A DNA stretch of 64,000 bases, taken from the NCBI RefSeq assembly GCF_000010665.1, contig NC_012796.1:2695501-2759500 (forward strand), in the 5' to 3' direction. Below the pieces are notes generated by a model. It worked only from the letters and a program-made list of their open reading frames with translations. It searched no databases and was not told the origin of the DNA. This DNA comes from Solidesulfovibrio magneticus RS-1. Its GTDB lineage: Bacteria > Desulfobacterota > Desulfovibrionia > Desulfovibrionales > Desulfovibrionaceae. A program made the position numbers and the translations under genes. Each line of letters opens with the position of its first letter. Within the stretch, counting starts at the first letter, position 1. Of the stretch, positions 48,118 to 63,446 are shown piece by piece.

Positions 48118-49035
48118 TTGAACATCCGTTTCCTCGGCTATCTCGCTGCCCTGTCCGCCACCGTGCTGTGGGCGGGCAATTTCGTCGTCGCCCGGGGCAT
48201 CGCCCAGGAAATCCCGCCGGTGCAGCTCAATTTCTGGCGCTGGCTTTTGGCGCTTGCCTGCATCCTGCCCTTTGCCTGGCCCAAGCTGCGGGCCGACTGG
48301 CCGGCCATGAAACGCCACTGGCGCTATCTGGCCGCCATGGGCTTGGTCGGCGTCTCGTTGCTCAACGCCTTCGTCTACAAGGCCGGGCAGACCACCGAAA
48401 GCCTCAACATGGCCTTGCTCGTGCCCACCGCCCCGGTCATGATCATCATTCTGTCACGCATCGTCTATGGCGAACCGCTGACCCCGCGCCGCCTGGGGGG
48501 CGTGGCCATCGTGCTGGTGGGGGTTTTAGAGCTGGTCTCGCGCGGCGACTGGAGCCATATCGCCTCCCTGCGCTTTCTGCCCGGCGATCTCTGGGCCTTG
48601 GCCGGAGCGGCCTGTTTCGCCCTGTATTCGCTTTTCGTACGCAAGCGTCCGGCCGGCATCTCCGTAGAAGGCTTCAACGCCGCCACCTTCGCCTGGGGAC
48701 TCGTCCTCATGCTGCCGGCCCTGGCCGTGGAGGCCGCCGCCGGACCGACCACGTCCTGGAACCTACGCGTTCTCTCCGGCGTGGCCTACGCCGGCATCGG
48801 CTGTTCCTTTGCCGCCTACACCCTGTGGACCAAGGCCATCGGCTCCATCGGACCGGTGCTGGCCGGCATCGTCTATTATTTCCTGCCGGTGGTGACGGCC
48901 GTGGAGTCGGTCTGGCTGCTTGGCGAGGCCGTAACCGCTGCCCACGTGCTGGGCGGGGCGCTCATCGTCTCGGGCATCCTGCTGGCCACCCTGGACGTGC
49001 GCTTGCTGTCCGTACGGCCCGGGAAAACCGTGTAG
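48118..49035 (+). CDS. EamA-family (DMT) membrane exporter
   Basis: The 305-residue protein has ten membrane helices in two EamA repeats: YLAALSATVLWAGNFVVARG at the start and GVAYAGIGCSFAAYTLWTKAIGSIGPVL in the second. The start is a TTG, supported by AAGGA 8 nt upstream. Such proteins export amino acids, nucleobases or sugar derivatives. It lies 51 nt before the cytidylyltransferase and could belong to the same transcript, exporting a product or precursor, but this is inference. Confidence 0.88.
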   Translation: MNIRFLGYLAALSATVLWAGNFVVARGIAQEIPPVQLNFWRWLLALACILPFAWPKLRADWPAMKRHWRYLAAMGLVGVSLLNAFVYKAGQTTESLNMALLVPTAPVMIIILSRIVYGEPLTPRRLGGVAIVLVGVLELVSRGDWSHIASLRFLPGDLWALAGAACFALYSLFVRKRPAGISVEGFNAATFAWGLVLMLPALAVEAAAGPTTSWNLRVLSGVAYAGIGCSFAAYTLWTKAIGSIGPVLAGIVYYFLPVVTAVESVWLLGEAVTAAHVLGGALIVSGILLATLDVRLLSVRPGKTV

Positions 49036-49086: not shown

Positions 49087-49824
49087 ATGACGGATGTCTG
49101 CAGCCAGACTCGCCGAGGCAACACTATCGCGGTCATTCCCGCCAGGGGTGGCAGCAAACGCATTCCTCGCAAAAACATCAAACCGTTTTGCGGCAAGCCC
49201 ATCCTCGCCTATTCCATCGCCACGGCCCGGGCGACCGGCCTTTTCGACCATATCGTGGTGTCCACGGACGACGAGGAAATTGCCGCAGTGGCCCGGCAGT
49301 GGGGTGGCGAAACCCCCTTTCTCCGGCCGGCCGGACTGGCCGACGATTTTGCCGGCACCAACGCCGTGGCGGCTCATGCCGCCGAGTGGTTTCTGCAGCA
49401 GGGAACAGCCGTGGCTCATGTCTGCTGCTTATATGCCACGGCCCCCCTGGCCACGCCCCTTTATATCACTAAAGGCTTTGAAATTCTTAAAGAGCGACAC
49501 TGTCCCTTTGTCTTCTCCGTCACGACGTTTCCTGCGGCGGTCCAGCGGGCCTTGCGGCTTGATGCCCAGGGCAGGGTTTCGGCATGGTATCCGGAGTTCA
49601 TGCCGACCCGGACCCAGGATCTGGAGGAAGCCTACCACGACGCAGCCCAATTCTATTGGGGCTCGCCCGAGGCGTTTGCCCGCCTGTCGCTGTTCGACTC
49701 CGGTTCTTCCGTGGTGCGATTGCCGCGCCATCTCGTTGCGGACATCGATACGCCCGAGGATTGGACGTTGGCCGAATGCCTGTACAGAACCCTTGTCGCC
49801 ATGGGAGAGATAGCGGTTTGGTAA
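49087..49824 (+). CDS. CMP-sugar (acylneuraminate/pseudaminate-type) cytidylyltransferase
   Basis: This 245-residue enzyme activates a nonulosonic acid with CTP. The N-terminal IAVIPARGGSKRIPRKNIKPF (residues 14-34) is the cytidylyltransferase signature, followed by GKPILAYSIATARATGLFDHIVVSTDDEEIA. The middle part shows VCCLYATAPLATPLYI, and VADIDTPEDWTLAECLY closes it. It is closest in pattern to pseudaminic acid cytidylyltransferase (PseF) rather than NeuA. Its role would be to activate the product of the NeuB-type synthase encoded 2 kb downstream. AAGGAAA precedes the ATG. Confidence 0.88.
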   Translation: MTDVCSQTRRGNTIAVIPARGGSKRIPRKNIKPFCGKPILAYSIATARATGLFDHIVVSTDDEEIAAVARQWGGETPFLRPAGLADDFAGTNAVAAHAAEWFLQQGTAVAHVCCLYATAPLATPLYITKGFEILKERHCPFVFSVTTFPAAVQRALRLDAQGRVSAWYPEFMPTRTQDLEEAYHDAAQFYWGSPEAFARLSLFDSGSSVVRLPRHLVADIDTPEDWTLAECLYRTLVAMGEIAVW

Positions 49825-49842
49825 CAAAGCCCGGGGGACGCC

Positions 49843-50562
49843 ATGTTCGCACATGATGCAAGGGACTCCGTTTTGGTCATCGCCGCCCATCCTGATGACG
49901 AAACGCTTGGGTGCGGGGCCACGATAGCCCGCCTGACCGCGTCGGGCCAGGATGTGCATGTGGTCTTCGCGGCCACCGGCGCCGCCGCACGGCATGATGC
50001 CGCCGAGATTGCCAGCGAAGCCGTCGCGCGCGAGGTGGCCGCGCTCAAAGCCGATGCAGGCCGTGCAGGAGCCGTGCTGGAAGTCGCCTCCCAAACTTTT
50101 TTGGATTTTCCCGACAACCGACTGGACACGGTGCCGCTTATGGACTTGGCCCAGAGCTTGAAACAACTTGTGGCCGACCTTCGGCCGGGCATCGTGTTTA
50201 CTCATCACTTCGGCGACTACAACTGGGACCACGGCCGCGTGCACGAAGCCACGCTCATGGCCTGTCGGGCCAATCCCGGGGAGTTTTATCCGCGCCACTT
50301 GTACAGCTACGAGGTGCTCTCCTCCACGGAACGGACCTTGGGTGCTCCCCACCGCCTGTTCGCCCCCAATGTGTTCGTGGACGCGACCGCCACCCTGGAC
50401 CGCAAGATCGCCGCCCTGCAATGCTATGCCTCGGAATTGGGCGTCTACCCCCACCCCCGCTCCCCCGAGGCGGTGCGCCAGTTGGCCGGCGTACGCGGCA
50501 GCTCGGTTGGCATCCATTTTGCTGAAGCATTCCAGCTGCTCAGAACCGTCCATGTCACCTAA
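49843..50562 (+). CDS. PIG-L family deacetylase
   Basis: This 239-residue zinc-dependent hydrolase removes acetyl groups from GlcNAc-like substrates. The metal motif VIAAHPDDETLGCGATIARL lies at residues 13-32, with the third ligand His in HHFGDYNWDHGRVHEATL. FAATGAAARHDA is also typical. Its place after the cytidylyltransferase suggests it deacetylates a sugar intermediate. The start is 18 nt after the preceding stop. Confidence 0.9.
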   Translation: MFAHDARDSVLVIAAHPDDETLGCGATIARLTASGQDVHVVFAATGAAARHDAAEIASEAVAREVAALKADAGRAGAVLEVASQTFLDFPDNRLDTVPLMDLAQSLKQLVADLRPGIVFTHHFGDYNWDHGRVHEATLMACRANPGEFYPRHLYSYEVLSSTERTLGAPHRLFAPNVFVDATATLDRKIAALQCYASELGVYPHPRSPEAVRQLAGVRGSSVGIHFAEAFQLLRTVHVT

Positions 50563-50622
50563 CGACGCCACGCACGACTCCCCCAGGGTGGGGGCTTCCA
50601 TCGCTTCCAGCCGGGAGAGCCC

Positions 50623-51765
50623 ATGATTGACAAGGCGAAAATCCAGGCAGCCATGCAATATTACGGGAAAGCCTACGTGGCCTTGGCGGACGTGGCCTCG
50701 GCCTGGGAACGCGGGGAAAAACCCGCAGACGCTTTTTTCACCCTGAAAAATCTGCCGGTCCGGGTGTTCGTGGAGCCGACGAACCGCTGCAACAAACGCT
50801 GCGTGTATTGCGCCAGGCCAAACATGACGCGCCAATCCGCCTCGCTGACTTTGGATGACTTCAAACGCGCCGTGGACGACATTGCCGCCGGGGCCTTTCT
50901 GCAATGCACCGGCAATGGCGAACCCCTGCTCAACCCGGACACCCCGGCCATGATCGCCCACGCCCGCCAAAAGGGGCTCCTGGTCGGCATCATCACCAAC
51001 GGCACCCGGCTGACGGCAAAACTATCCCGCGCCCTTATCGAAGCCGGGCCGCATCAAGTCCAGATTTCCTTTGACGCGGTAGACCGCGACGTTTTCAACG
51101 CCAGCTACAACTCCCCCAGGGGCGGATGCAGCTACGAGGCGACCTTGTCCAAGATTCTCCGGTTCCTGGACATGGAGCGCCGGGAATTTCGCAAAGGCAT
51201 CTTTGTCAGCATCGCTTCGGTGCTCACCGACGCCGTCCGCTCCGTGCGGGAGACATCCCGTGCGTATTGGGAAAGGCTGCCGGTGGACAATTATTTTGAA
51301 GCCCCCCTGCTGTCCCTGCAGACCGACTCCGGCACGGCCCATCTGGCCCGGACAGGGGAGGAGCCCTGGAAGCTGTGTTCAAATCCCTGGAAAGCCGTGA
51401 AGGTCAATGCCGACGGCACGGTCAACCCCTGCGTGCACGATTTTTCCAGCAAGTACGTCATTGGCGACATCAAGCAACAACCACTGCGTGAGATCGTGAA
51501 CTCCCCCGCAGCCGTTGCTTTGCGCAAGGCGCTTTATTACCAGGACATCGATTTTTTCAAAGCCATTGGGTACAACTGCCAGGACTGCAATGTCTGGAGC
51601 CAGGCGACAGGCCACGACGTGCGCGGCTATCTCGACGGCAGTTTTCCTGTCACCTACGGGCTGATCGTCAGCCAACTGGCAGGCTGTGCGTCTTATGCGC
51701 CTGAGAAAATGGAAAATCTGCGTCGAGCTGCGTCAGAGGCCTCTGGCGCGCTCTCGGGGATGTAA
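50623..51765 (+). CDS. Radical SAM protein with SPASM-type C-terminus
   Basis: The 380-residue enzyme has CNKRCVYC (Cys56, Cys60, Cys63) for the radical cluster and LQCTGNGEPLLNPD as the SAM-contacting loop. The C-terminal domain (about 240-330) has WKLCSNPWKAVKVNADGTVNPC and GYNCQDCNVW, a SPASM-like auxiliary cluster. These enzymes make unusual C-C, C-H or sulfur changes. Position between the deacetylase and the NeuB-type synthase suggests a sugar-ring or chain rearrangement. It ends 3 nt before the synthase. Confidence 0.9.
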   Translation: MIDKAKIQAAMQYYGKAYVALADVASAWERGEKPADAFFTLKNLPVRVFVEPTNRCNKRCVYCARPNMTRQSASLTLDDFKRAVDDIAAGAFLQCTGNGEPLLNPDTPAMIAHARQKGLLVGIITNGTRLTAKLSRALIEAGPHQVQISFDAVDRDVFNASYNSPRGGCSYEATLSKILRFLDMERREFRKGIFVSIASVLTDAVRSVRETSRAYWERLPVDNYFEAPLLSLQTDSGTAHLARTGEEPWKLCSNPWKAVKVNADGTVNPCVHDFSSKYVIGDIKQQPLREIVNSPAAVALRKALYYQDIDFFKAIGYNCQDCNVWSQATGHDVRGYLDGSFPVTYGLIVSQLAGCASYAPEKMENLRRAASEASGALSGM

Positions 51766-51768
51766 CCC

Positions 51769-52806
51769 ATGCCGCATTCTCGTATTCGCATAGACGCCGC
51801 CCATGAGATCGGTCCGGACCGGACCTTTGTCATCGCGGAGGTGGGGTCCAACCACGGCCGGGACCTCGGCAAGGCCTTGGAAAGCGTGGACGCCGCCGCT
51901 CGTTGCGGCGTGGATGCCGTCAAATTCCAGTCCATCGACCTGGATGCCCTGTATTACGCGCCTGATGACAACGTTCGCGCCCTGCACGCCCGCATCGATT
52001 TCGAGGAACGTTGGCACGGGGAACTCAAGGCCGCCTGCCATCGCCGCGGCGTGCTCTTCGTGTCCACGCCGACGTATTTGCGGGCCGTGGATGTTCTGGA
52101 ATCCGTAAACGTCGCCCTGTATAAACTTGCTTCGGCCCAGGTCGGCGTCTTTCCCCAGCTGGTCGCCCGGGTGGCCGCCCTGGGCAAGCCGACCCTGATG
52201 TCCGCCGGCCTGGTCACGCCCGGAGGGTTGGAGGCGTCGGTGGACGCCTTTCGCCGGGCAGGCAACGACGACTACGCCATCCTGCATTGCAACGCGATCT
52301 ACCCGACGCCGCCCAACCGGACACATTTGGCCCGGATAGAACTGTTGCGGGCCTTGTATGGATGTCCCGTGGGGTTTTCCGATCACACCCAAGGCATCGC
52401 CGTGGCCCTTGCGGCCGTGGCCCGTGGGGCGGCGATCATCGAAAAGCATTTCACCCTGAGTCGCGGCCTGGACACGCCCGATGCCTTTTTTTCTCTGGAG
52501 CCCCCGGAACTGGCCTCGCTGGTGGCCGGCATCCGGGACGTGGAAGCGGCTTGCGCGCCCTGCCGGGCGCGCCTGGCCATCGAAACCGAGGAAAGCGCCT
52601 TCAAGGAATCCATCCGCTACCGGCTGGTCCTTCGCGTGGCCAAAGCCGCCGGCCAAGCCTTTGCCCCGGGTGATTTCGACTACAAACGCCACAACGAGGG
52701 TGTGGATTGCGTCGAAGAGGGGCTGGTGCTGGCCCGGATGCAGGCCAGGGGCCCGCTCGATGCCGGAGAACTGCTGCGCTGGGAGATGGTGGAGGGGAAA
52801 GCGTGA
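51769..52806 (+). CDS. NeuB-type nonulosonate synthase (PEP-condensing)
   Basis: This 345-residue TIM-barrel enzyme condenses phosphoenolpyruvate with a sugar to make a nonulosonic acid. Family signatures are FVIAEVGSNHGRD (residues 20-32), DAVKFQSIDLDAL, VLFVSTPTYLRAVD, YKLASAQV, GFSDHTQGIAVALAAVARGA, and EKHFTLSRGLDTPDAFFSLEP. A C-terminal antifreeze-like SAF domain (about 280-340) completes the normal architecture. The stop overlaps the GTG of the ATP-grasp gene. It may make pseudaminate, legionaminate or a related acid; the sugar substrate is unknown. Confidence 0.92.
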   Translation: MPHSRIRIDAAHEIGPDRTFVIAEVGSNHGRDLGKALESVDAAARCGVDAVKFQSIDLDALYYAPDDNVRALHARIDFEERWHGELKAACHRRGVLFVSTPTYLRAVDVLESVNVALYKLASAQVGVFPQLVARVAALGKPTLMSAGLVTPGGLEASVDAFRRAGNDDYAILHCNAIYPTPPNRTHLARIELLRALYGCPVGFSDHTQGIAVALAAVARGAAIIEKHFTLSRGLDTPDAFFSLEPPELASLVAGIRDVEAACAPCRARLAIETEESAFKESIRYRLVLRVAKAAGQAFAPGDFDYKRHNEGVDCVEEGLVLARMQARGPLDAGELLRWEMVEGKA

Positions 52807-54032
52807 AACGTGTTTTGGCGATCAACCTCGGCTGGGAGCAGGAACCGCTCCTTGATCTGCTCGGTTCCCTTAATCTGGAAATTTACGGCGTCCATGCCAA
52901 CGACGGCTACTACAAAGGCATCCGCTATCACGACCTGCTCATCGCCGCCCCCCGGGATTTGCCCAGGCTGCTGCTTTTTGCTCAAAAGGTCCGGCCTGAC
53001 GCCGTCATTTCCGACCAATGCGACTATTCCCAGTTCGCCCAGGCCGTCATCGCCTCGCGTCTGGGCCTGCCCGGCCCCAGCCTGCGCGACGCCCAGATCG
53101 GCAACAGCAAACTCTTGCAACGCACCCTCGGCTGGCAGGCCGGTCTGACCTGTCCCCGCTTCACGCTTTGCCTCGACGCCCAGGACGTGCTGCGTTTCGG
53201 GCGCGAACACGGCTATCCGTTGATCATCAAGCCCGTGGACAATCGCGGCAGCTTCGGCGTCAATCGGGTAGATCGGGAAAGCGACGTCCTGCCCGCATTT
53301 TACGACGCGCTGATCCACAGCCATTCGCGCGGCGTATTGGCGGAGACCTTTATCCAGGGCCGGCATTTGACCGTGGACGGCTACGTCTTTCAAGGACTTG
53401 GTCCCCGCACGCTGGCCGTGGCCACAAAAACCAAACTACCGCAGAAACAGTCCATCATTGACGGCGAAATCACCTATCCTGGAGAATTGCCGCCCGCCTT
53501 GTACGACAAGGCGAGCGCCGCCCTGGAACGGACCGCAGCAGCTCTGGGCTTCGGCTTCGGTTTTTTGCACGGCGAATTTATCCTCACCGACGCAGGCGAG
53601 GTGTACCTGACGGAAATAGCCAATCGCGGCGGCGGGGTGTTCACCTCGGAAATCATTGTGCCCAATGTTTCCGGCATCGACATCCTGTCTGTCTACGTCA
53701 ATGATTGCCTGGGCACGCCCTTGCTCCCCATAAGCGGCGATCCGAACCACCCCGGCCGGACCCCCACGGTGATGCAGTTGTTCGCCTTTTCCGATCTCCA
53801 GGAAGGCATCGTCAAAAAAATCAGCGGCATTGACCTGCTGGAAGCCCGAGAAGACGTCTTGCGGCTCAAGATGCTTATCCGACGCGGCGACGTCGTGCGC
53901 GGCATTGCTTCGGGCGCCGACCGGCATGGCGTGATCATCATGACCGCACCGGAGCCGCGGGAGTTGAAAAGACGGTTAAGCGAAGCCCTGGCCATGCTGC
54001 AGGTGACCATTGAAAAACGTGACGCTTCTTGA
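52803..54032 (+). CDS. ATP-grasp ligase
   Basis: The 409-residue protein has the ATP-grasp fold of carboxylate-amine ligases. The ATP-binding lobe shows GYPLIIKPVDNRGSFGVNRV (about 140-160), the metal-binding segment HGEFILTDAGEVYLTEIANRGGG, and a DYSQFAQAVIASRLGLPG pre-lobe. The start is the GTG at 52803, overlapping the synthase stop by 4 nt. It probably forms an amide or ester bond between a carboxylate and an amine. Placed between the synthase and the aldolase, it could attach an amino acid to the sugar acid. Substrate unknown. Confidence 0.9.
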   Translation: MKRVLAINLGWEQEPLLDLLGSLNLEIYGVHANDGYYKGIRYHDLLIAAPRDLPRLLLFAQKVRPDAVISDQCDYSQFAQAVIASRLGLPGPSLRDAQIGNSKLLQRTLGWQAGLTCPRFTLCLDAQDVLRFGREHGYPLIIKPVDNRGSFGVNRVDRESDVLPAFYDALIHSHSRGVLAETFIQGRHLTVDGYVFQGLGPRTLAVATKTKLPQKQSIIDGEITYPGELPPALYDKASAALERTAAALGFGFGFLHGEFILTDAGEVYLTEIANRGGGVFTSEIIVPNVSGIDILSVYVNDCLGTPLLPISGDPNHPGRTPTVMQLFAFSDLQEGIVKKISGIDLLEAREDVLRLKMLIRRGDVVRGIASGADRHGVIIMTAPEPRELKRRLSEALAMLQVTIEKRDAS

Positions 54033-55047
54033 GTGCACCTTGCGTGACGGCGCCTACAAAGTCGATTTCATGATCGACCAGGAGACCTGTTGTGCTTTCG
54101 CCGAGAAGCTCGTCCGCATCGGCTTCCAGGATATCGAAGTCGGACACGGGCTGGGCCTTGGCGCATACCGGCAGTATTCAGCCGGTTTTACCGATGAGGC
54201 GCTCTATAAGCGCCTTGCGCCTCTGGCCGCGCGCAGCCGCCTCTACAGCTTCTTCATCCCCTCTGTAGGCAAGCCCGACGATTTTCGCATGGCCCGTGAC
54301 TACGGGCTTTACGGCCTGCGCGTTGGCGCCGAACCGGTTTACGTCCTGGACAGCATTCCAACCCTGGAAGCAGCCAAGTCCCTGGGCTATTTCGTGGCCC
54401 TCAACGTGATGAAAAGCTACACCGTCACGCCCGACGGCTTTGCCAAGCTTGTGGAGACCGTCAAGGATTTCGTGGATGTGATTTACCTGGTCGATTCCGC
54501 CGGCCACATGTTGCCCGAGGAGCTGCGGGCCTATGTACGGGCCATCCAGGACCGCGTCGGCATGATCGCCTTGGGCTACCACGGCCACAACAACCTGGGA
54601 CTGGCCGTGGCCAGCGCCCTGGAACTGCTCGATGAGGGCGTGCAATACATCGACACGACCCTGACCGGCATCGGCCGCAGCGGCGGCAACATCCCCACGG
54701 AAACCATGCTGGCCGTCCTGGCCAAGAAATACGGCGTCCAATACTGCTCGGACGATTTTCTGCTGCAAACGCTAGGCGTTGCCCGCCAGTTTCGAGAATA
54801 TGTGCTGTCCAAGGGCAAGTCGCTGGATTTTCGCAGCGAGGACATCCTGTTCGGCTACGCCGGTTTCCACTCGTCCTACGAGGATCTGTTGCGCCGCGAA
54901 GCCGAACGGCAAGGCCAGGATTTCCACCAGGCCATCCTGGATGTCTCGCGACGCGAACAGGTCTGTCTGACCGAAGCGATCCTGACCGATATTTTTCGAG
55001 AAATAAGCGCGTCGCAGGCAAACGCAGCCTGCAAGCCGCGCTCGTAA
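54010..55047 (+). CDS. DRE-TIM metallolyase (HMGL-like aldolase)
   Basis: The 345-residue protein belongs to the HMG-CoA lyase-like aldolase family: LLECTLRDGAYKVDF (metal site Asp and Arg), YLVDSAGHMLPEELRAY and GYHGHNNLGLAVASALELLDEG with the metal-binding His-x-His. A C-terminal 60 residues resemble the aldolase extension seen in 4-hydroxy-2-oxovalerate aldolases. The start is a TTG at 54010, overlapping the ATP-grasp gene by 23 nt, preceded by AGGTGA. It may cleave or form a carbon-carbon bond on a 2-oxo acid. Its presence beside a NeuB-type synthase is unusual. Confidence 0.88.
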   Translation: MKNVTLLECTLRDGAYKVDFMIDQETCCAFAEKLVRIGFQDIEVGHGLGLGAYRQYSAGFTDEALYKRLAPLAARSRLYSFFIPSVGKPDDFRMARDYGLYGLRVGAEPVYVLDSIPTLEAAKSLGYFVALNVMKSYTVTPDGFAKLVETVKDFVDVIYLVDSAGHMLPEELRAYVRAIQDRVGMIALGYHGHNNLGLAVASALELLDEGVQYIDTTLTGIGRSGGNIPTETMLAVLAKKYGVQYCSDDFLLQTLGVARQFREYVLSKGKSLDFRSEDILFGYAGFHSSYEDLLRREAERQGQDFHQAILDVSRREQVCLTEAILTDIFREISASQANAACKPRS

Positions 55048-55059
55048 AAAGGACGCCTG

Positions 55060-55719
55060 ATGCGGGAGATTCCCCAAAGCATCGCGGCCAACATGGTGCA
55101 ACGTTATACCAAGCGGTATCGCGATCTCGGCTATCATGTCCGCACGCTTGGCTGGGGCAACGTCGAACAGCAACGACGCCGTTTTGCCATGACCCTGACC
55201 CTGGGCCTCGACTTGACCGGAACACGAGTGGTGGATTTCGGCTGCGGCTTCGGCGATTATTACGATTTCCTCAAGGATGTCGGGGTGTCTTGTGACAACT
55301 ACCTGGGGCTGGACATCAACCCCGATTTGCTCCAAGAGGCCCGGGCGCGCCATGGAGACGATCCGCGAACCGCCTTTGCCCAGGTGGATCTCGCCCGGAA
55401 GCAGTCCGGCGAACCTCTTGGCGATGTCGGCGTCATGCTCGGCGTGCTCAACCTCAATTTGCACGACGCCTTCGACAATGAAACGTACTCCCGGCAGTTG
55501 ATCACCCGGGCCTTCGGCCTCGTGCGCCAGGCCCTGATCGTGGATTTTTTAAGTGCCCGCCTGGATCCCGGCTATCCCCGGGAGGATTTTGTCTACTATC
55601 ACGACCCAGGCAGGATTCTGGATTTCGCCCTGTCGCTGACCCCGGACGTGGTGCTCAAACATGACTACCTACCTTTGCCGCAAAAGGAATTCCTGCTGCT
55701 GTTGCGTAAAACCACATGA
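55060..55719 (+). CDS. Class I SAM-dependent methyltransferase (sugar cluster)
   Basis: The 219-residue methyltransferase has SAM motif I VVDFGCGFGDYYDFLKDVG (about residues 57-75), YLGLDINPDLLQEARARHG as motif II and VGVMLGVLNLNLHDAF as motif III/IV. It starts 12 nt after the aldolase stop and overlaps the amidohydrolase by 4 nt, so it is part of the operon. The acceptor is unknown and could be an O- or N-position on the sugar product. Confidence 0.87.
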   Translation: MREIPQSIAANMVQRYTKRYRDLGYHVRTLGWGNVEQQRRRFAMTLTLGLDLTGTRVVDFGCGFGDYYDFLKDVGVSCDNYLGLDINPDLLQEARARHGDDPRTAFAQVDLARKQSGEPLGDVGVMLGVLNLNLHDAFDNETYSRQLITRAFGLVRQALIVDFLSARLDPGYPREDFVYYHDPGRILDFALSLTPDVVLKHDYLPLPQKEFLLLLRKTT

Positions 55720-56528
55720 ATATTTTCGATTGCAACATCCATTTCTCCCTCTTGGGGGCTGTGGACCGGCCGCATCTGACCAGTGACGAGACACGCATGG
55801 GACCGGCCGATCTGGAGGCCTGCTTCGACGTGCAGGGCGCTGCCATCCAAGCGGCGGTGCGCGCCGCCAACTTCATGCTGTTCAATCAAGAGCTGTTTTT
55901 CGGTGACGGATTGGACGGATTCATGGGAAGGGTTCGACGCGCCCTGCCCGGCTCCACCTTCACCGCCTTGATCGATTTTCGCCGACAAGACGCCCCGAAC
56001 GCCGTGGCCTTGGCCGCCGCCCAGGGCGTACGCGGGCTCAAGTTCCATTCGTACTTCCAGCGTATCGCCGAGGAGGATTTTCCGGCGGCCCTGGCCGTGG
56101 CGCGTCGCGCTCAGGACCTGGGTTTATTTGTTTGCGTGGACACTAGTTACGGCACGTCAGGCATGTACCGTTACGACAACCTGCGGCTGGCCTGTCTTTT
56201 GGCCGAAATGTTGACCGTCCCCATCATCTTGCTGCACAGCGGGGGCCTTCGCGTGTTCGAAGCCATGCTCCTTGCCGAGGATCATGACCACGTGTATTTG
56301 GAAACATCCTTTTCCCCGCATTATTACCAGGGTTCCACCGTGGAGGACAATTTCCGCTGGGCCTATCGCAAACTCGGCGCGCACAAGTTGTTGTACGGTT
56401 CGGACCATCCCTATCTCGGCCTGGAGCAAAGCCAGCGCCATATGCGACTTTTTCTGGAACATTGCCGATTTTCCCCAACAGACATCGCCGCCGTCTTCCA
56501 TGACAACGCCCACATCTTGTTCGCCTGA
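55716..56528 (+). CDS. Amidohydrolase-family (TIM-barrel) protein
   Basis: This 270-residue protein matches the amidohydrolase_2 fold. It shows an opening MNIFDCNIHFSLLG where the usual DxHxH is weakened, then GVRGLKFHSYFQRIAEEDF, VPIILLHSGGLRVFEAMLLA, VYLETSFSPHYYQG and LYGSDHPYLGLEQSQ. Metal ligands His and Asp are partly present, so catalysis may be a decarboxylation or lactone/amide hydrolysis rather than a classic amidohydrolase reaction. It overlaps the methyltransferase by 4 nt. The substrate is unknown. Confidence 0.8.
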   Translation: MNIFDCNIHFSLLGAVDRPHLTSDETRMGPADLEACFDVQGAAIQAAVRAANFMLFNQELFFGDGLDGFMGRVRRALPGSTFTALIDFRRQDAPNAVALAAAQGVRGLKFHSYFQRIAEEDFPAALAVARRAQDLGLFVCVDTSYGTSGMYRYDNLRLACLLAEMLTVPIILLHSGGLRVFEAMLLAEDHDHVYLETSFSPHYYQGSTVEDNFRWAYRKLGAHKLLYGSDHPYLGLEQSQRHMRLFLEHCRFSPTDIAAVFHDNAHILFA

Positions 56529-56536
56529 GGCCACCC

Positions 56537-57079
56537 ATGGATATTGTCTTTCGACCTGCCGCCCCAACGCCGCAAGATGCCGCCCGCGTCCTCGCCTGGC
56601 GAAACGATCCCGTGACCTTGGCCATGTTCTACCATCAGGAGCCCAAGGTCTTTGCCGCGTTCTGGCCGGAATACCTTGGCGAGTATTTCAAGCATGGCGA
56701 TCTGCCCCCGCTGTTTGCCATGGTCGATGGACACGAGGCGGCATTTTTGCGCAGCAATCCCTATCCTGACGGACCGGTCCCAGGGCGGTGCCTGGATATC
56801 GATATCAACGTCGTTCCCAATCGGCGCGGACAGGGAATCGGTACGGCCGTCATCCGGGCCATGGCCTGCCGCCTTCTGGAGGCGTGCCAATGCGTGGTGG
56901 CCGAGGTCAAATGCTGCAACACCCCTTCCCTCAAAGCGTTTCAACGCGCCGGTTTTCGCGTCCATGACCACGCAACGCATCTGGTCGCCGAGACGGGAGA
57001 AATCGTCCCTATCGTGCGCCTGACGGCCATGCGGGCTCAGTTGTCAAGCCTGCGCCAAGAAGATCATGCTGTACTTTGA
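56537..57079 (+). CDS. GNAT-family N-acetyltransferase
   Basis: The 180-residue acetyltransferase shows the acetyl-CoA loop NVVPNRRGQGIGTAVIRAMACRLLEACQCVVAEV with the RRGQGIG phosphate-binding turn (about 91-97), and CNTPSLKAFQRAGFRV. It resembles the PseH/related sugar N-acetyltransferases in role, though not close enough to name. In this cluster it could acetylate an amino group freed by the PIG-L enzyme. The HAD gene begins within its last 14 nt. Confidence 0.88.
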   Translation: MDIVFRPAAPTPQDAARVLAWRNDPVTLAMFYHQEPKVFAAFWPEYLGEYFKHGDLPPLFAMVDGHEAAFLRSNPYPDGPVPGRCLDIDINVVPNRRGQGIGTAVIRAMACRLLEACQCVVAEVKCCNTPSLKAFQRAGFRVHDHATHLVAETGEIVPIVRLTAMRAQLSSLRQEDHAVL

Positions 57080-57707
57080 TTTTGACGGCGTGGTGGCGGA
57101 CAGCGTGCCGGCCCTGCACTCCATCTACTCAGATTTCTTAATATTTTACGATATTACGCCACAACCGGGCGAATTCGAGCGTCTCAACGGCCCCTCCCTG
57201 CAGGAAATCGTGGCCTGTCTCAAGCATGTCCATGGATTGCCTGGCGACGTCGAGGACCTACTGGCCCGATACGAGGCTTTGCGGCGTGACGCCTACGCTA
57301 AGCGGATCAAACCCTTTGCGGATGTTGCACGGGTATTGGACAGCTTGGCCGGGGCCGGCCAGACGCTCCATCTGGTCACCGCTTCGGAACCGGGACCGGT
57401 GCGAGACTTCTTGGCGACGTGGCGGCTGACCGAATATTTCCGGGAAGTGGTTTGCGGCAATGCCGTGGCGCGAGCCAAGCCGGCTCCGGACCTCTACCTG
57501 CTGGCCATGGAGCGCAGCGAAGATGTGTTTGCGGCCGGCTTGGCCATAGAGGATTCGGTCAATGGCGTCCGATCAGCCGTGTCGGCCGGATTGCGAGTGT
57601 TTGGCGTTCATGCGCAAGCCACGGTTCGGGCGGCGTTGACCGAGGCCGGGGCTTGGCGAACCGCAGCTTGCCTGGGCGATGCGCTGCCGACACTGGGGGC
57701 ATGGTGA
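57066..57707 (+). CDS. HAD-superfamily phosphatase (sugar cluster)
   Basis: This 213-residue HAD protein keeps a normal motif I YFDFDGVVADS, a motif II LHLVTASEPG, a Lys in RAKPAPDLYLLAMER and motif IV GLAIEDSVNGVRSA. It should dephosphorylate a small phosphate ester, for example the 9-phosphate left after a synthase acting on a 6-phosphosugar. Start overlaps the acetyltransferase by 14 nt and its end overlaps the next gene by 7 nt. In contrast to the HAD at 16640, both catalytic Asp residues are present. Confidence 0.88.
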   Translation: MLYFDFDGVVADSVPALHSIYSDFLIFYDITPQPGEFERLNGPSLQEIVACLKHVHGLPGDVEDLLARYEALRRDAYAKRIKPFADVARVLDSLAGAGQTLHLVTASEPGPVRDFLATWRLTEYFREVVCGNAVARAKPAPDLYLLAMERSEDVFAAGLAIEDSVNGVRSAVSAGLRVFGVHAQATVRAALTEAGAWRTAACLGDALPTLGAW

Positions 57708-58429
57708 GAGCCGACGCGACAGTGCTCGCCCGGGGGGAGGTCACGGTACGGCTGGCGACAGCTCCGGACCTGACTGCACGAATGGCCGATCTGGAACCGA
57801 AAATAGCTGCAGCCTGGGCAAAGGCACGACAGGAGCAACCATGTTTGTACGACGCCCCCGTGCCGCATTTTCTGGAGCTTAAGGAAGAAGGAACGGGGAT
57901 CGTACTGCGGGCGGCCGTCATAGGCTTTCGGCAGTTGCACGCAGCGCGGTGCCATCCGGAATGGGGGCTTGGCCTGACCCCCATTGGCATTAACGGCACG
58001 ACGTTGACCAAGGACGGGCGCTTGGTTTTTGCCCGCCGGGCGGCCTTTGTCTCACAATATCCCGGTCTGTGGGAGCTAGCCCCATCAGGGCATTTGAGCC
58101 CCCCCTTCGGGTTCTTGGGGCAATGGAGGCACGAGCCTGACTTGCTGGCGGAATTCGAAGAAGAACTGGGCTTGAAGCGCTCACGGGTGACGGCAGTGCT
58201 CACCCTGGGGGTGCTGCGGGACAATCGATCACCCATGCTGGACATCTGTTGTTTGCTGCGCGTCAACGCTCTGGCCGACGAAATCCAGTCTGCCATGGTC
58301 GCCCTGGCCCCGCGGCAGGAATACGCCGAGGCGGCATTTGTTCCGCTGGACCAAGCGCAAGCTTTTGCCGCCGCCAGGGAACTGACGCCCTCGACCCGCT
58401 CCCTGCTGACATTGCTGCCCAAAGCTTGA
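57701..58429 (+). CDS. Nudix-like protein
   Basis: The 242-residue product has an apparent Nudix box at FLGQWRHEPDLLAEFEEELGL, with EEELG matching REUxEExGU except that Arg is Ala. The preceding GLWELAPSGHLSPPFG and a following VTAVLTLGVLRDNRSPMLDICC support a Nudix fold. The missing Arg may reduce hydrolase activity. It is the last gene of the cluster, starting within the HAD stop. A role in nucleotide sugar turnover is possible but unproven. The hybrid kinase converges from the other side with a 9-nt gap. Confidence 0.65.
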   Translation: MVRADATVLARGEVTVRLATAPDLTARMADLEPKIAAAWAKARQEQPCLYDAPVPHFLELKEEGTGIVLRAAVIGFRQLHAARCHPEWGLGLTPIGINGTTLTKDGRLVFARRAAFVSQYPGLWELAPSGHLSPPFGFLGQWRHEPDLLAEFEEELGLKRSRVTAVLTLGVLRDNRSPMLDICCLLRVNALADEIQSAMVALAPRQEYAEAAFVPLDQAQAFAAARELTPSTRSLLTLLPKA

Positions 58430-58437
58430 GCAGCCAA

Positions 58438-61317
58438 TCAGAGGGTCTTATCTATTGCCCTCTCAACAACGACTTTAAGTTCATCTCTCTCCACCGGCTT
58501 CGAGATATAGCCATCCATTCCCGCCGCCAGAAACAGCTCCTTGTCGCCGGTCATGGCGTAAGCGGTCATGGCGATGATGGGTATATGGGACTTCTCCCCA
58601 AGGTCCGATGACCCTCTGATGGCCTTTGTCGCTTCGACGCCATCCATCACAGGCATCTGGATGTCCATGAGAACCAGGTCAAAGTCCTGTTCGTGCAGGA
58701 TGGCCAGGGCCTCCCTGCCATCCGGGGCGGTCGTCACCGAACAGCCCATTTTGTGCAGCATCCGCTTTCCGGCGAACAAGCTGAATTCGTCATCCTCTAC
58801 CAACAGGATGCGCAACGGGGTTTCAGCCGGCCCGTCGGCCTGACGCGGCTGCTGGGCTGCTGGTTCCTGATGCGGGACAGGAAGTTTGAACGGCAGGGAA
58901 ACGTAAACCGTGGTGCCGTTTCCCGCCGTGTTGTCAATCACCATCTCGCCGCCGAGGATTCTGACCAGCTTGCGGACAATGGCCAGCCCCAGCCCTGCCC
59001 CCTGGTAGCAGCGGGTATAGCTCCGCTCGCCCTGGACGAATGGTTCGAAAATGTCTTTGAGCTGCTCATCGGAAATACCGATGCCGGTATCGCTCACGGC
59101 AAACAACACCCGGACAGCCCCGCTATTCTTGGCCGGAAGAACCATGGCGTCGACTTGGACAGAACCGCTTTCCGTGAATTTGAGGGCGTTCCCGACAAGA
59201 TTGAACAGGATTTGCCGGACACGCGTTTCATCGCCGATGAGCATGGGCGGCATTTGAGCATCGACATGAAAATCAAAAGCCAGGCTCTTTTCCCGTGCCG
59301 TGGGGCGGAAGATTTCCATGATGGATTCCTGGAGGCAGGCCGTGAAAAACTCCGCTTCGATGATCTGCAGCTTACCGGCCTCGATCTTTGAAATATCCAG
59401 AATATCGGCAAGCAGACGGGTCAGCCGCTTCGTCGACTTGATCGCCCCCAGAATGTATTCTTTCTGCTCGTCCGTCTGCTCGGTTGTTTGCAGCAACTGG
59501 AGCATGCCCAGGACGCCATTCAGCGGCGTCCGGACTTCATGGCTCATATTGGCCAGGAACTCGGACTTTGCCCGCGTGGCACTCTCAGCGGCCTCCTTGG
59601 CGTCCAAAAGCGCCTGGGCGGCTTTTACCGAGTCCGTGATGTCGCGGAACTCCACGGCGCGGACCATTTTCCCCTTGTACGGGAGATTGCGCGCCTCCAG
59701 CCGCATGGGAAACTCTTCCCCGTTTTTTCGGCGGCCATATTCCTCATAGGGTTTTTCATACCCCGCCCGAATATGGGCCATGACGACATCGCGCGACCGT
59801 TCCGCCACAAGGAACAGGCCATCCATGCCGATCAGCTCATCACGGGCATAGCCGAACATTTCGCTCAGCCCCAGGTTGCACTCCAGGATGACCCCCTTGT
59901 CATGAATGGCAATGCCGCCAAAGGAAGCATTATGTAACGCCTTGAAGCGCTCCTCGCTCTCCCGCAGCGCCTCTTCAGCCATTTTGCGGGCGGTGATTTC
60001 ACGGGCAATGCCCAAAACGCCGATCAACCGGCCGTGGGCATCGTACATCGGGGATTTGATGGTCTCAAACAGGCCGCTGTAATCGTCTTCGACAAAGGTC
60101 AGCCACTCTTCGTTAATCCTGGGGCCGCCCGCCTCAATGGCCTTGCGGTCATTGTCTCTAAAAAAATCGGCCAGTTCCTTGTTAAAGAAGGCGTAATCAT
60201 CCTTTCCGATTATGGCCGACTCATCAGCTCCGAAGAAACGCTCAAACTTTTTATTGCATTGCAAATACCGCCCATCAATATCCTTGAGCCAAACAAGGTC
60301 CGGAATGGTATTTATGATAGTCCGCAGCAATAGTTCCGATTGCGCCAAGGCATTTTGAGCTTCCTTTCGCAAGGTAATATCAGTGAACATGGCAAAAGAG
60401 CCATTAAATTCATTGCGATCTCCTTTTAAGGCTTTGGCGGAAACCATCGTCCACAGTTCTTTTCCATCTCTTCGGCGAAAACGACGTTCATAAACATCAT
60501 CTTCACCACCATGTCTTCGGGCCATGCGTTGGCTGTGAAGTTCCATATCCTCAGGAAAAAAGTAATCCTCGACTTTTTGGCCTATCATTTCATCTGGACT
60601 ATAACCAATCATGTCCGCCATCGCCGCGTTGACATAGGTCGTCACATGCTCTCGGTCCATGGCCCAGATTCCCTCGTTGGCCGTATCAACCAACAGCCGG
60701 TATCGCTCCATGCTCTCGATCAATTGCCGGCCTGTGCGTTCGCGCTGGAGATAATTGACCAACAACGAGCCTAATAACGCGGTCCCGACAGGATAGATGG
60801 CAATGACCGGCAACGCGATATTGTCCAACACCTTCAAGGCGATATCCCAGGGAAGGGTCAGCATCAGCGCCAGCATGACAATATTAACGACCAGACCGAA
60901 CAGATACAGCTCGCGCCAGGTCATCTGATGCAGTTGGCGTCCCCTGTAACATCGCCAAACCGAACCGATAAGGCCTGAAGCCGCTATGACGCCAACGCCC
61001 GTCCATGCCCCCAGTCCGCCCTGGACCAACCGCAAGGCGGAAGTCATGATCACAGCGATCGCCGTGGACAACGGGCCGAAGAACAGGCCTGAGATCCCCA
61101 CCAGGACAGAACGCGTGTCAAAAACCACCCCAGGCATCAGCTTCCACGGCGTCAGCATGACGACCACGCCAATGCCCCCGAGCGCAATGCCCGTGACCAC
61201 CTGGGTCAGGAACGTATTGCTTTTTTTGAAGCGGACGACAGCCACTTCAAAGAGCAGCGCGACCGCCAACAAGAGAGAAACATTCTGAAACAGGCCTATG
61301 AATGAACTGTGTTCCAT
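58438..61317 (-). CDS. Hybrid histidine kinase with 5TM-LYT sensor and three PAS domains
   Basis: The 959-residue protein begins with six or more membrane segments. It contains the 5TMR-LYT signature GVVFDTRSVLVGISGLFFGPLSTAIAVIM (about residues 63-91) and ALRLVQGGLGAWTGVGVI. Three PAS domains with PAC segments lie at about 205-560. HisKA follows (FLANMSHEVRTPLNGVLGMLQLL), then HATPase (RQILFNLVGNALKFTESGSV and GAGLGLAIVRKLVRILGG) and a C-terminal receiver (LVLMDIQMPVMDGVEATKAI, Asp phosphoacceptor). No separate response regulator is adjacent. The sensed signal may be a membrane-associated or peptidoglycan-derived compound, as for 5TM-LYT proteins. Confidence 0.93.
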   Translation of the reverse strand: MEHSSFIGLFQNVSLLLAVALLFEVAVVRFKKSNTFLTQVVTGIALGGIGVVVMLTPWKLMPGVVFDTRSVLVGISGLFFGPLSTAIAVIMTSALRLVQGGLGAWTGVGVIAASGLIGSVWRCYRGRQLHQMTWRELYLFGLVVNIVMLALMLTLPWDIALKVLDNIALPVIAIYPVGTALLGSLLVNYLQRERTGRQLIESMERYRLLVDTANEGIWAMDREHVTTYVNAAMADMIGYSPDEMIGQKVEDYFFPEDMELHSQRMARRHGGEDDVYERRFRRRDGKELWTMVSAKALKGDRNEFNGSFAMFTDITLRKEAQNALAQSELLLRTIINTIPDLVWLKDIDGRYLQCNKKFERFFGADESAIIGKDDYAFFNKELADFFRDNDRKAIEAGGPRINEEWLTFVEDDYSGLFETIKSPMYDAHGRLIGVLGIAREITARKMAEEALRESEERFKALHNASFGGIAIHDKGVILECNLGLSEMFGYARDELIGMDGLFLVAERSRDVVMAHIRAGYEKPYEEYGRRKNGEEFPMRLEARNLPYKGKMVRAVEFRDITDSVKAAQALLDAKEAAESATRAKSEFLANMSHEVRTPLNGVLGMLQLLQTTEQTDEQKEYILGAIKSTKRLTRLLADILDISKIEAGKLQIIEAEFFTACLQESIMEIFRPTAREKSLAFDFHVDAQMPPMLIGDETRVRQILFNLVGNALKFTESGSVQVDAMVLPAKNSGAVRVLFAVSDTGIGISDEQLKDIFEPFVQGERSYTRCYQGAGLGLAIVRKLVRILGGEMVIDNTAGNGTTVYVSLPFKLPVPHQEPAAQQPRQADGPAETPLRILLVEDDEFSLFAGKRMLHKMGCSVTTAPDGREALAILHEQDFDLVLMDIQMPVMDGVEATKAIRGSSDLGEKSHIPIIAMTAYAMTGDKELFLAAGMDGYISKPVERDELKVVVERAIDKTL

Positions 61318-62216: not shown

Positions 62217-63446
62217 ATGGCCAAAAAACTGTCGAGCAACTATCCCGGCGTCCGATTCCGGGAACATGAGACCCGGAAGGACAACCGCCGGCCTGACCGC
62301 TACTTTTCCATCCGCTACCGCTGCCGCGGCAAAAACATGGAGGAAGGCATCGGCTGGGCCTCCGAAGGCTGGACCGCCGAAGACGCCAGCCGCATCCTTG
62401 GCGAGATCCGCCAGAACATCAGGCGCGGCACCGGCCCGCAATCCCTCCGGGACATGGCCCGGGCCGCCCGGGGCGAGGCCGACGCCGCCGAAGCCGCACC
62501 CCTCACCTTCGGGGAGCTGGCCCGACGCTACCTCGACTGGGCCAAGCGTAACAAATCCTCGTGGAAAGAGGATGAATATCTTCTGGCCAAACGCGTCCTG
62601 CCCCTTTTCGCCCACCGCCCCGCCACATCGCTGACCCGTACCGACACCGAACAATTCCGAGACGCCCTGCTGGACGCCGGCGGGCTTTCGCCCATGACCA
62701 TCAAACACCATCTTGTCGTCATCCGCCGCGTCTACAACTGGGCAGCGTCCACGCCCGTTGCCGACGATCCGGGACACATGCTTTTCGAAGGCCGAAACCC
62801 CGTGTCCGGCATCCGCATGCCCCTCGTCGACAACGAGCGCATCCGCTTCCTGACCCGCGAAGAGGCTGACCGACTCCTGGAGGCCGCCGGGGAGCGCCTG
62901 CCCGAGATGCACGACATCATCCTCCTGGCCCTGCTCACCGGCATGCGCCGGCAGGAGATCCTTGGGCTGATGTGGCAGGACGTCGACCTCGTCAACCGCA
63001 TCATCTCCATTCCGGCCCGCCTGACCCGGGCCAAACGAAGCCGCAAGGCCTTCCTGGACGAGGAAACGGCCGCCATGCTGCAAGCGCGCCGCGAACATGC
63101 GCAATCCCCTTTTGTTTTTCCAGGCGCCGTCGACGGCCGCCGGGACCCTGACCACGTCACCCGGCAGTTCGACGCCCTGGTCAACGGCATCGGCCTCAAC
63201 AACGGCGTCACAGACCCGAAGCATAAGGTCGTGTTCCATACCCTGCGCCACACCTTCGCCAGCTGGCTGGCCCAGGCCGGGGCGGACATCCATCACCTGA
63301 TGGAGCTGACCGGCCACAAGTCGATTTCCACGATGCAGCGCTACGCCCACCTTATGCCCGGGAAAACCCGCGCGATCGCTTCCCTGGTTTCGCGTCGCGC
63401 TTCGCCAGCTCCAAAAGGCGTTCCTCCCGGGTCTTCCGAATCGTGA
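62217..63446 (+). CDS. Tyrosine recombinase (phage/island integrase)
   Basis: The 409-residue integrase has an N-terminal SAM-like domain (LTFGELARRYLDWAKRN onward) and a catalytic domain. Its active residues are Arg244 (LTGMRRQEILGL), His341 and Arg344 (HTLRHTFASWL), His367 (LTGHKSISTMQRYAHL) and Tyr376. All catalytic residues are present, so it should be active. It lies 143 nt from the tRNA-Leu fragment and points away from it, the usual position of an integrase in an island that uses a tRNA gene. Its end overlaps the convergent small gene by 95 nt. Confidence 0.95.
   Translation: MAKKLSSNYPGVRFREHETRKDNRRPDRYFSIRYRCRGKNMEEGIGWASEGWTAEDASRILGEIRQNIRRGTGPQSLRDMARAARGEADAAEAAPLTFGELARRYLDWAKRNKSSWKEDEYLLAKRVLPLFAHRPATSLTRTDTEQFRDALLDAGGLSPMTIKHHLVVIRRVYNWAASTPVADDPGHMLFEGRNPVSGIRMPLVDNERIRFLTREEADRLLEAAGERLPEMHDIILLALLTGMRRQEILGLMWQDVDLVNRIISIPARLTRAKRSRKAFLDEETAAMLQARREHAQSPFVFPGAVDGRRDPDHVTRQFDALVNGIGLNNGVTDPKHKVVFHTLRHTFASWLAQAGADIHHLMELTGHKSISTMQRYAHLMPGKTRAIASLVSRRASPAPKGVPPGSSES

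Follow-up and report, generated by a model that had tools for sequence, protein, structure and literature searches.

A conserved eleven-gene cluster of Solidesulfovibrio magneticus RS-1 that probably encodes an acyl-variant branch of the CMP-pseudaminate pathway

The nearest experimental precedent for the eleven-gene cluster that we describe here from Solidesulfovibrio magneticus RS-1 (positions 49087-58429 of a 64,000-nt stretch of contig NC_012796.1, hereafter the window) would seem to be the sfmABCDE operon of Shewanella oneidensis. According to the accessible part of PMC3765264, this operon encodes a NeuB-like protein, a thiamine pyrophosphate (TPP) enzyme, a reductase, a methyltransferase and an ATP-grasp protein, and deletion of each gene shifts the mass of the flagellin, whose glycan comprises a 274-Da mono-N-acetyl nonulosonate, probably pseudaminate, and an O-methyl moiety of 236/250/264 Da (C9H16O7 to C11H20O7). 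Both systems combine a NeuB-like protein, a methyltransferase and an ATP-grasp protein with an enzyme of the carbon-carbon type (the TPP enzyme in Shewanella). The likeness is one of gene descriptions, not of sequences, and the Shewanella operon, as described in that part of the paper, differs in having no aldolase, PIG-L, amidohydrolase, radical SAM (S-adenosylmethionine), Nudix or PseF gene.

Two other flagellar systems, also cited from the accessible parts of the papers, show partial resemblance. The Cj1295-dependent di-O-methylglyceroyl pseudaminate of Campylobacter jejuni (PMC3068675) is similar in that a methylated acid takes the place of an acyl group; it depends on a different gene and is compared here by description only. 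In the type B flagellar glycan of Clostridioides difficile, the ATP-grasp protein CDR20291_0245 is needed for a terminal peptidylamido-sugar on flagellin (PMC5207246), but other sugars are involved, and no nonulosonate synthase is among the genes described in that part of the paper. The cluster also recalls the PseBCHGIF pathway of the Campylobacter and Helicobacter type, with which the host shares a PseF over the cut-off (in the cluster) and PseB and PseC (elsewhere in the genome). It differs in that its synthase falls into a separate clade, in that PIG-L, ATP-grasp, aldolase, methyltransferase, LigI-like and radical SAM genes are added, and in that PseG and PseH are apparently replaced by a Nudix plus a HAD protein and by another GNAT. 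A literature survey, made mostly at listing level and on partly accessible texts, brought up no such gene assignment; ATP-grasp, PIG-L and radical SAM proteins do not occur in two papers on nonulosonates or flagellin islands (PMC7371886, PMC5109656), and an aldolase is likewise missing from one of them.

We consider it probable that the cluster encodes a branch of the CMP-pseudaminate pathway, the product of which would be a sugar of the pseudaminate type, most likely destined for flagellin, in which a dedicated acyl group takes the place of one N-acetyl. The original prediction had taken the cytidylyltransferase and the NeuB-type synthase as marks of a CMP-nonulosonate pathway, and this was supported by profile searches, which placed gene 1 over the PseF cut-off and gene 4 in the NeuB family (Table 1). 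It had also concluded, from the lack of the usual dehydratase, aminotransferase and epimerase genes, that the set is not a standard pseudaminate or legionaminate one. There are indeed no dehydratase or aminotransferase genes inside the cluster, but to take this as distance from pseudaminate was not supported: the same genome encodes PseB and PseC over curated cut-offs (479.2 and 439.3 bits; adjacent at C2:4551830-4554008, on the same contig, 1.8 Mb from the cluster), gene 1 is its sole PseF-grade gene (the next match reached 60.2 bits), and pseB and pseC accompany related clusters elsewhere. None of the three NeuB proteins of the host genome exceeded the PseI or NnaB cut-off. According to these genome-wide matches, the host has PseB and PseC and no standard PseF or PseI that would duplicate genes of the cluster. 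The latter is more plausibly the second half of a pathway of the pseudaminate type, in an acyl-variant form, and, to judge from its sequences, would be a branch of that pathway rather than a separate kind. The PseH profile (TIGR03585), searched for in the cluster and not in the rest of the genome, did not match the GNAT encoded by gene 9.

The cluster is real and conserved. Relatives were collected by similarity to the DRE-TIM protein (gene 6) in 199 genomes of the class and to the ATP-grasp protein (gene 5) in 395 genomes drawn from the phylum and 397 drawn from Campylobacterota; the chosen gene is thus present by construction, and absences refer to tblastn searches in which a few queries were run against sequences 13-20 kb long. 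Because all 11 genes, together with both neighbours, are syntenic in a congener (locus L034, 86-99% identity), their grouping goes beyond chance. In another genus of the same family (L035) genes 2-11 are collinear (28-67% identity), and past gene 11, on the opposite strand, lie genes for a class III aminotransferase and for a cytidylyltransferase, the latter with a PseF score of only 30 bits. Another family of the phylum (L059, genome G293) has relatives of genes 2-8 in rearranged order, with a six-gene core of NeuB, ATP-grasp, aldolase, methyltransferase, amidohydrolase and PIG-L; this locus also holds pseB and pseH over the cut-offs, two cytidylyltransferase-like genes (below the PseF cut-off or named by eye) and a PseG-like gene. 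In Campylobacterota, L064 and L063/L082 have relatives of genes 1, 2, 4, 5, 7 and 8, and thus five of the core genes, together with an RraA-like aldolase, and L065 and L066 have relatives of genes 1, 4 and 5; as the contigs of the latter two stop inside gene 5, they were left out of the PIG-L, aldolase, methyltransferase and amidohydrolase counts. The conserved co-occurrence of synthase, ATP-grasp and aldolase, which the original prediction had proposed to look for, was found in L034, L035 and L059, and with the RraA-like aldolase in L064 and L082.

The ATP-grasp gene is rare. It was found at E 1e-30 or better in 5 of the 395 genomes of the phylum draw, and among the four of these other than the host a NeuB relative was present in the fetched stretch only in G293 (L059). 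In the Campylobacterota draw it was found in 6 of 397 genomes, with the NeuB version at the module only in the centre genome G577; in L080 the start of a NeuB gene lies at the margin of the sequence fetched, on the other strand and approx. 9 kb from the module, and this locus was counted as NeuB-less at the module. Two loci were dropped before counting: L062 (ATP-grasp and weak methyltransferase relatives, no RraA match) and L081 (no gene-5 match). A scan of genome contigs for a pair of narrow peptide patterns derived from alignment A1 returned four loci and says little about the distribution beyond the two phyla, and a single scan of viral contigs gave no gene-5 relative. Gene 6 matched 388 plasmid records, all at <60% identity; the 20 listed were dmpG-type aldolases.

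The Campylobacterota loci link relatives of the cluster to genes of pseudaminate synthesis. In L064 (Sulfuricurvum), the only one of them that was read whole, the order is fliD-like, pseB, pseC, pseF, NeuB, ATP-grasp, RraA-like, methyltransferase, amidohydrolase, PseG-like, PIG-L and pseH. It thus resembles a PseBCHGIF set in one operon beside a FliD-like gene; its PseB, PseC, PseF and PseH exceed the NCBIfam cut-offs, whereas the PseG-like protein, NeuB and FliD do not. In L066 (Sulfurimonas), fliD and fliS adjoin pseB and PseC is over its cut-off, with pseB and the gene-1 relative assigned by tblastn, and L065 carries relatives of pseB and PseC. The pseB and pseC genes lie upstream in all three Campylobacterota loci with long enough contigs (L064, L065 and L066).

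The synthase encoded by gene 4 is divergent, with scores below the cut-offs of both NeuB_NnaB (228 of 399.65 bits) and PseI (TIGR03586; 209 of 340.25 bits). A maximum-likelihood tree was built from 43 rows (with four cluster rows of unusual residue make-up and a midpoint root for drawing only); in it the eight cluster NeuB proteins formed a single clade (support 100/100) on a stem of 1.42 changes per column. This clade is separate from 13 PseI and 14 NnaB proteins, and a 95/94 split places it with PseI and with the long-branched NeuB of locus L051. The His that follows the active-site Asp is absent from all eight cluster proteins and from 13/13 PseI, and present in 14/14 NnaB and eight ungrouped rows. 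Around the arginine of the C-terminal domain the cluster proteins (8/8) have KRxxxG(I/V)(D/N)C, where PseI mostly has (I/V)RPxxG(L/M)H and NnaB mostly KRPGxGxSP; the positions E, K, K, H, H, D and R, which we take to be catalytic, are conserved. On balance, these features suggest that the substrate of gene 4 would be an L-altro sugar in which an N-acyl group is altered.

The L051 stretch (G000, C2:4568500-4587500) is a second nonulosonate-type locus of the host genome. Besides the long-branched NeuB it contains genes for a PseC-like aminotransferase, a PIG-L relative, two radical SAM relatives and a weak PseG-like protein.

Two other assignments of the sugar have to be set against these data. 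A legionaminate- or neuraminate-type sugar, or one for an envelope polysaccharide instead of flagellin, appears unlikely: the cytidylyltransferase over the PseF cut-off, the PseI-like residue pattern and tree position of the synthase, and pseB in related loci all weaken this possibility. It is favored by the position of L059, within a polysaccharide locus that also has hisF/hisH-like genes (by eye), by a best PDB profile match of gene 4 to a sialic acid synthetase, with the pseudaminate synthase 8h2c second, and by higher scores with NeuB_NnaB than with PseI, for gene 4 as well as for the NeuB of L064 (269.6 vs 219.9 bits). That genes 1 and 4 carry out the standard steps of an ordinary Pse5Ac7Ac route, with unrelated neighbours, is highly improbable. 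PseB, PseC and PseF over equivalog cut-offs in the genome would agree with such a route, but the synthase is under the PseI cut-off in a clade of its own, the extra genes accompany it across two phyla, and the set of ATP-grasp, aldolase, amidohydrolase and methyltransferase genes is also found together without a synthase.

This last arrangement was observed in six NeuB-less loci fetched by gene-5 similarity (L060, L061 and L077-L080). All six have the RraA-like and a DegT-type aminotransferase gene, five the amidohydrolase (not L079) and four the methyltransferase (not L077 and L078), the module genes of L061 being dispersed over approx. 9 kb; neither PIG-L nor radical SAM relatives were detected in any of them. 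The aminotransferase of L077 and L078 is WecE, over the cut-off, with rmlA/rmlB-like genes (by eye) nearby. As a WecE product carries a free 4-amine, a deacetylase would presumably be unneeded there; PIG-L is present in each of the six NeuB-bearing cluster loci read far enough (the window, L034, L035, L059, L064 and L082). The pattern fits a module that would build an acyl group and attach it to the amine of a sugar, with PIG-L as an addition for sugars on which both amines would otherwise be acetylated.

The closest solved structure to gene 5 is the L-amino acid ligase BL00235 (3vot; E 1.3e-19, 73.5 bits over part of the profile), a member of a group of enzymes that form dipeptides rather than sugar amides. 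Gene 8 gave a model of high confidence (predicted local distance difference test, pLDDT, 91.9), for which Foldseek found 4i6k as the best match, and also 4di9, 4d8l and 2ffi, at template modelling scores of approx. 0.6 and 13-18% identity; the uncharacterised amidohydrolase 3cjp was second by fold and first by profile. The best matches of gene 2 were the BshB1/BshB2 deacetylases in NCBIfam, below the cut-offs, and 1uan in the PDB (E 5.5e-11). The extra amide and carbon chemistry envisaged in the original prediction is supported as regards the amide, and probably also as regards carbon.

It is doubtful, in our opinion, that the aldolase, radical SAM and ATP-grasp proteins act on the carbon chain of the sugar itself to give a higher-carbon or branched nonulosonate, as that prediction had suggested. 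The families involved are able to form C-C bonds, and the radical SAM protein is conserved in the four NeuB loci of the DRE-TIM type (the window, L034, L035 and L059). However, in the two loci where WecE and rmlA/rmlB-like genes accompany the NeuB-less module, these would make a 4-amino-4,6-dideoxyhexose, for which no extra carbons are needed, and the solved ATP-grasp relatives closest to gene 5 are L-amino acid ligases. Another alternative, in which the PIG-L protein would be a GalB-like hydratase that forms, with the LigI-like gene 8 and the aldolase, a reversed tricarboxylate module of the protocatechuate/gallate type, is rather improbable. It could account for the second-best PDB match of gene 2, the 4-oxalomesaconate hydratase 5cgz (E 4e-8), for the LigI-type fold relatives of gene 8 and for the LigK/GalC-type relatives of the RraA-like replacement, but it is weakened by the lack of PIG-L in all NeuB-less loci that retain the RraA-like aldolase, and by the best matches of gene 2, which are 1uan in the PDB and, below the cut-offs, the BshB1/BshB2 deacetylases in NCBIfam.

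The slot between the ATP-grasp and methyltransferase genes is occupied by two different aldolases: a DRE-TIM protein in the window, L034, L035 and L059 (in the latter with a further methyltransferase gene), and an RraA-like protein (PF03737; PDB relatives include 3noj) in L064 and L082. The families to which they are related, DmpG/BphI (4-hydroxy-2-oxovalerate aldolases) and LigK (HMG/CHA aldolase), both use pyruvate. Both proteins are below the NCBIfam cut-offs, and gene 6 reached 194 of 229 bits with NF006049 and 165.4 of 286 bits with TIGR03217. It retains HGHNN, and has RDGAY...FHSS as against RDG(S/M)H...Y(S/G)S in the canonical paralogues L052 and L053. The His of RDGxH and the Tyr of YSS are, we presume, catalytic in 4-hydroxy-2-oxovalerate aldolase, and in our reading of the sequence this pair would be exchanged in position in gene 6. 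Because the canonical His and Tyr are absent, we can only infer pyruvate aldol chemistry for this protein.

DRE-TIM paralogues have other contexts too. Of 16 further loci fetched by weaker DRE-TIM similarity, four have an ATP-grasp relative, all with radical SAM relatives, and the remaining 12 have neither, five of them with a NeuB relative and one with a NeuB fragment. This pattern (4/4 vs 0/12) suggests that the radical SAM protein tends to accompany the version with DRE-TIM and ATP-grasp genes; by tblastn, gene 3 has relatives in L034, L035 and L059 and none in L064 or L082. Four related loci from other genomes of the same family (L036, L040, L043 and L044) have, beside ATP-grasp and radical SAM genes, one for a longer DRE-TIM protein of approx. 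690-700 aa; in L036 and L040, the two that were scanned, Pfam matched nothing C-terminal to the aldolase part. At L059:4351-5745 the L059 cluster includes genes for an additional methyltransferase and for a radical SAM protein that binds B12, both of which could be C-methylating enzymes.

Genes 10 and 11 may together replace PseG. Gene 11 had no Pfam or NCBIfam match, and its closest solved structure is NUDT22, by profile (5lf9, E 2.3e-4) and, on a model of mean pLDDT 51, by fold (Foldseek E 5.6e-8); in alignment A5 only part of the Nudix box (ExEEELG) is conserved. NUDT22 is a UDP-glucose hydrolase according to the accessible part of PMC10101856; the similarity is weak, and the substrate of gene 11 would instead be a UDP-trideoxy sugar. 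Both genes are present in the three loci in which no PseG-like gene was found (the window, L034 and L035), and both are absent (tblastn) from the other loci read through (L059, L064 and L082), which have a PseG-like gene, in L082 a weak match of 22% identity. It is this anticorrelation, together with the fold likeness, that suggests a Nudix protein with a HAD phosphatase in place of PseG. The only PseG match of the host genome reached 97.5 bits (cut-off 153.55) at C2:4578981.

If the cluster is a branch of the pseudaminate pathway, synthesis could proceed as follows. PseB and PseC, from their separate locus in the genome, would make a precursor of the UDP-4-amino-4,6-dideoxy-L-altrosamine type, which the GNAT would acetylate. 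The NUDT22-like Nudix protein and then the HAD phosphatase would convert the UDP-sugar via the sugar-1-phosphate to the sugar, and the PIG-L protein would strip one N-acetyl. The DRE-TIM aldolase, with the radical SAM protein, might make a hydroxy or oxo acid from pyruvate, which the methyltransferase and the LigI-like enzyme would modify or cyclise, and the ATP-grasp protein would join the acid to the free amine, not necessarily in this order. The divergent NeuB, in which the presumed catalytic residues are conserved, would then add phosphoenolpyruvate, and the PseF-family enzyme would activate the product with CTP. Transfer might be carried out by the single MptE/Maf-like glycosyltransferase of the host genome (C2:3475704).

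Several observations weigh against this reconstruction. As regards the flagellar target, fliD adjoins only two of the four Campylobacterota loci (the upstream genes of L065 are non-flagellar, by eye, and L063 ends at gene 1), no flagellar genes are linked to the cluster within the window, there is no glycosyltransferase gene inside the cluster, and the Maf-like gene is far away, with no flagellin gene recognised by eye within 20 kb around it. As regards the sugar, gene 4 and the NeuB of L064 score higher with NeuB_NnaB, as given above, and the cytidylyltransferase of L035 is non-PseF, in a genome outside the PseB/PseC search. As regards the acyl group, the RraA-like proteins match LigK far under the cut-off, gene 6 is without the His and Tyr of the canonical aldolases, DRE-TIM paralogues occur near ordinary NeuB genes without an ATP-grasp relative (L037, L039, L042, L048 and L049), and the radical SAM step has no explained place in the pathway. 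The model of gene 11 is poor, and the weak PseG relative at C2:4578981 could serve. Moreover, the absence of PseG from L034 and L035 is soft, because the divergent PseG query overlooked PseG-like-looking genes (by eye) in L065 and L066. Finally, in the accessible part of PMC3765264, the ATP-grasp deletion of Shewanella is the mildest, with cells that still swim, and the extra moiety, which is without nitrogen and so not a pyroglutamate, could be a sugar and not an acyl group.

The original description of the layout was borne out by open reading frames and by Pfam and NCBIfam profile matches: eleven genes, all open, lie on one strand with tight spacing (Table 1). The tightest junction is a 23-nt overlap of genes 5 and 6 (with TTG 54010 taken as the start of gene 6) and the widest a gap of 60 nt between genes 2 and 3; the start codons of gene 5 (GTG 52803), gene 6 (TTG 54010) and gene 11 (ATG 57701) need care. 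An EamA-type (DMT) transporter gene (48118-49035; family by eye) lies 51 nt upstream on the same strand, and a relative of it also adjoins the cluster in the congener L034. Downstream, a large sensor kinase gene (58438-61317) is convergent with the cluster, followed by an integrase-like gene (62217-63446), which may mark a mobile element (both by eye).

Table 1. Genes of the cluster, with positions in the window
Gene	Assigned or proposed product	Position	Strand	Basis
1	PseF-type CMP-nonulosonate cytidylyltransferase	49087..49824	+	TIGR03584, 297 bits (cut-off 205.7)
2	PIG-L family; proposed de-N-acetylase freeing one sugar amine	49843..50562	+	PF02585, 99.5 bits
3	Radical SAM/SPASM enzyme	50623..51765	+	PF04055 and PF13186
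4	NeuB-family nonulosonate synthase, separate clade	51769..52806	+	PF03102, 217.5 bits
5	ATP-grasp (LAL_C2); proposed N-acyl/amide ligase; GTG start	52803..54032	+	Family match; 3vot closest solved structure
6	DRE-TIM, HMGL-like, resembles 4-hydroxy-2-oxovalerate aldolase; TTG start	54010..55047	+	NF006049, 194 bits
7	Class I SAM methyltransferase	55060..55719	+	PF08242; conserved family alignment A4
8	Amidohydro_2; LigI-type (2-pyrone-4,6-dicarboxylate hydrolase) fold relatives	55716..56528	+	PF04909
9	GNAT acetyltransferase; may stand in for PseH	56537..57079	+	PF00583
10	HAD phosphatase; proposed sugar-1-phosphate phosphatase	57066..57707	+	PF13419
11	Nudix-type, NUDT22-like; proposed UDP-sugar to UMP + sugar-1-phosphate	57701..58429	+	NUDT22 by profile and fold

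A more specific suggestion concerns the acyl group itself. The accessible part of PMC10609480 lists hydroxy-methyl-pyroglutamate N-acyls for Vibrio and Plesiomonas O-antigens, one of the three on a 4-amino sugar. The link of our module to such groups is an idea of our own and is not taken from that paper. The aldolase, methyltransferase, LigI-like and ATP-grasp genes might form a general cassette for pyroglutamate-type N-acyls of glycans, which here would decorate a pseudaminate on an amine freed by PIG-L, with Nudix and HAD proteins acting for PseG; we regard this as a speculative and rather unlikely proposal. Its foremost product would be the 2,4-dihydroxy-3,3,4-trimethylpyroglutamoyl group that the O-antigen of Vibrio anguillarum V-123 carries on its 4-amino sugar, an entry of the list in PMC10609480. 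Two pyruvates would be condensed to 4-hydroxy-4-methyl-2-oxoglutarate by the RraA-like or DRE-TIM aldolase, SAM would methylate C3 beside the ketone, the ATP-grasp protein would form the amide, and the LigI-like enzyme would close or open the ring.

If the assignment of the cluster to the pseudaminate pathway is correct, it would define a scattered but genetically delimited branch of nonulosonate synthesis, whose synthases form a separate clade marked by KRxxxG(I/V)(D/N)C and in which two steps would have been swapped: a DRE-TIM for an RraA-like aldolase, and Nudix plus HAD proteins for PseG. The cluster would also supply candidate genes for the special N-acyl groups of glycans, and a testable parallel to the flagellin glycan of Shewanella, the larger moiety of which is left unsolved in the accessible part of PMC3765264.

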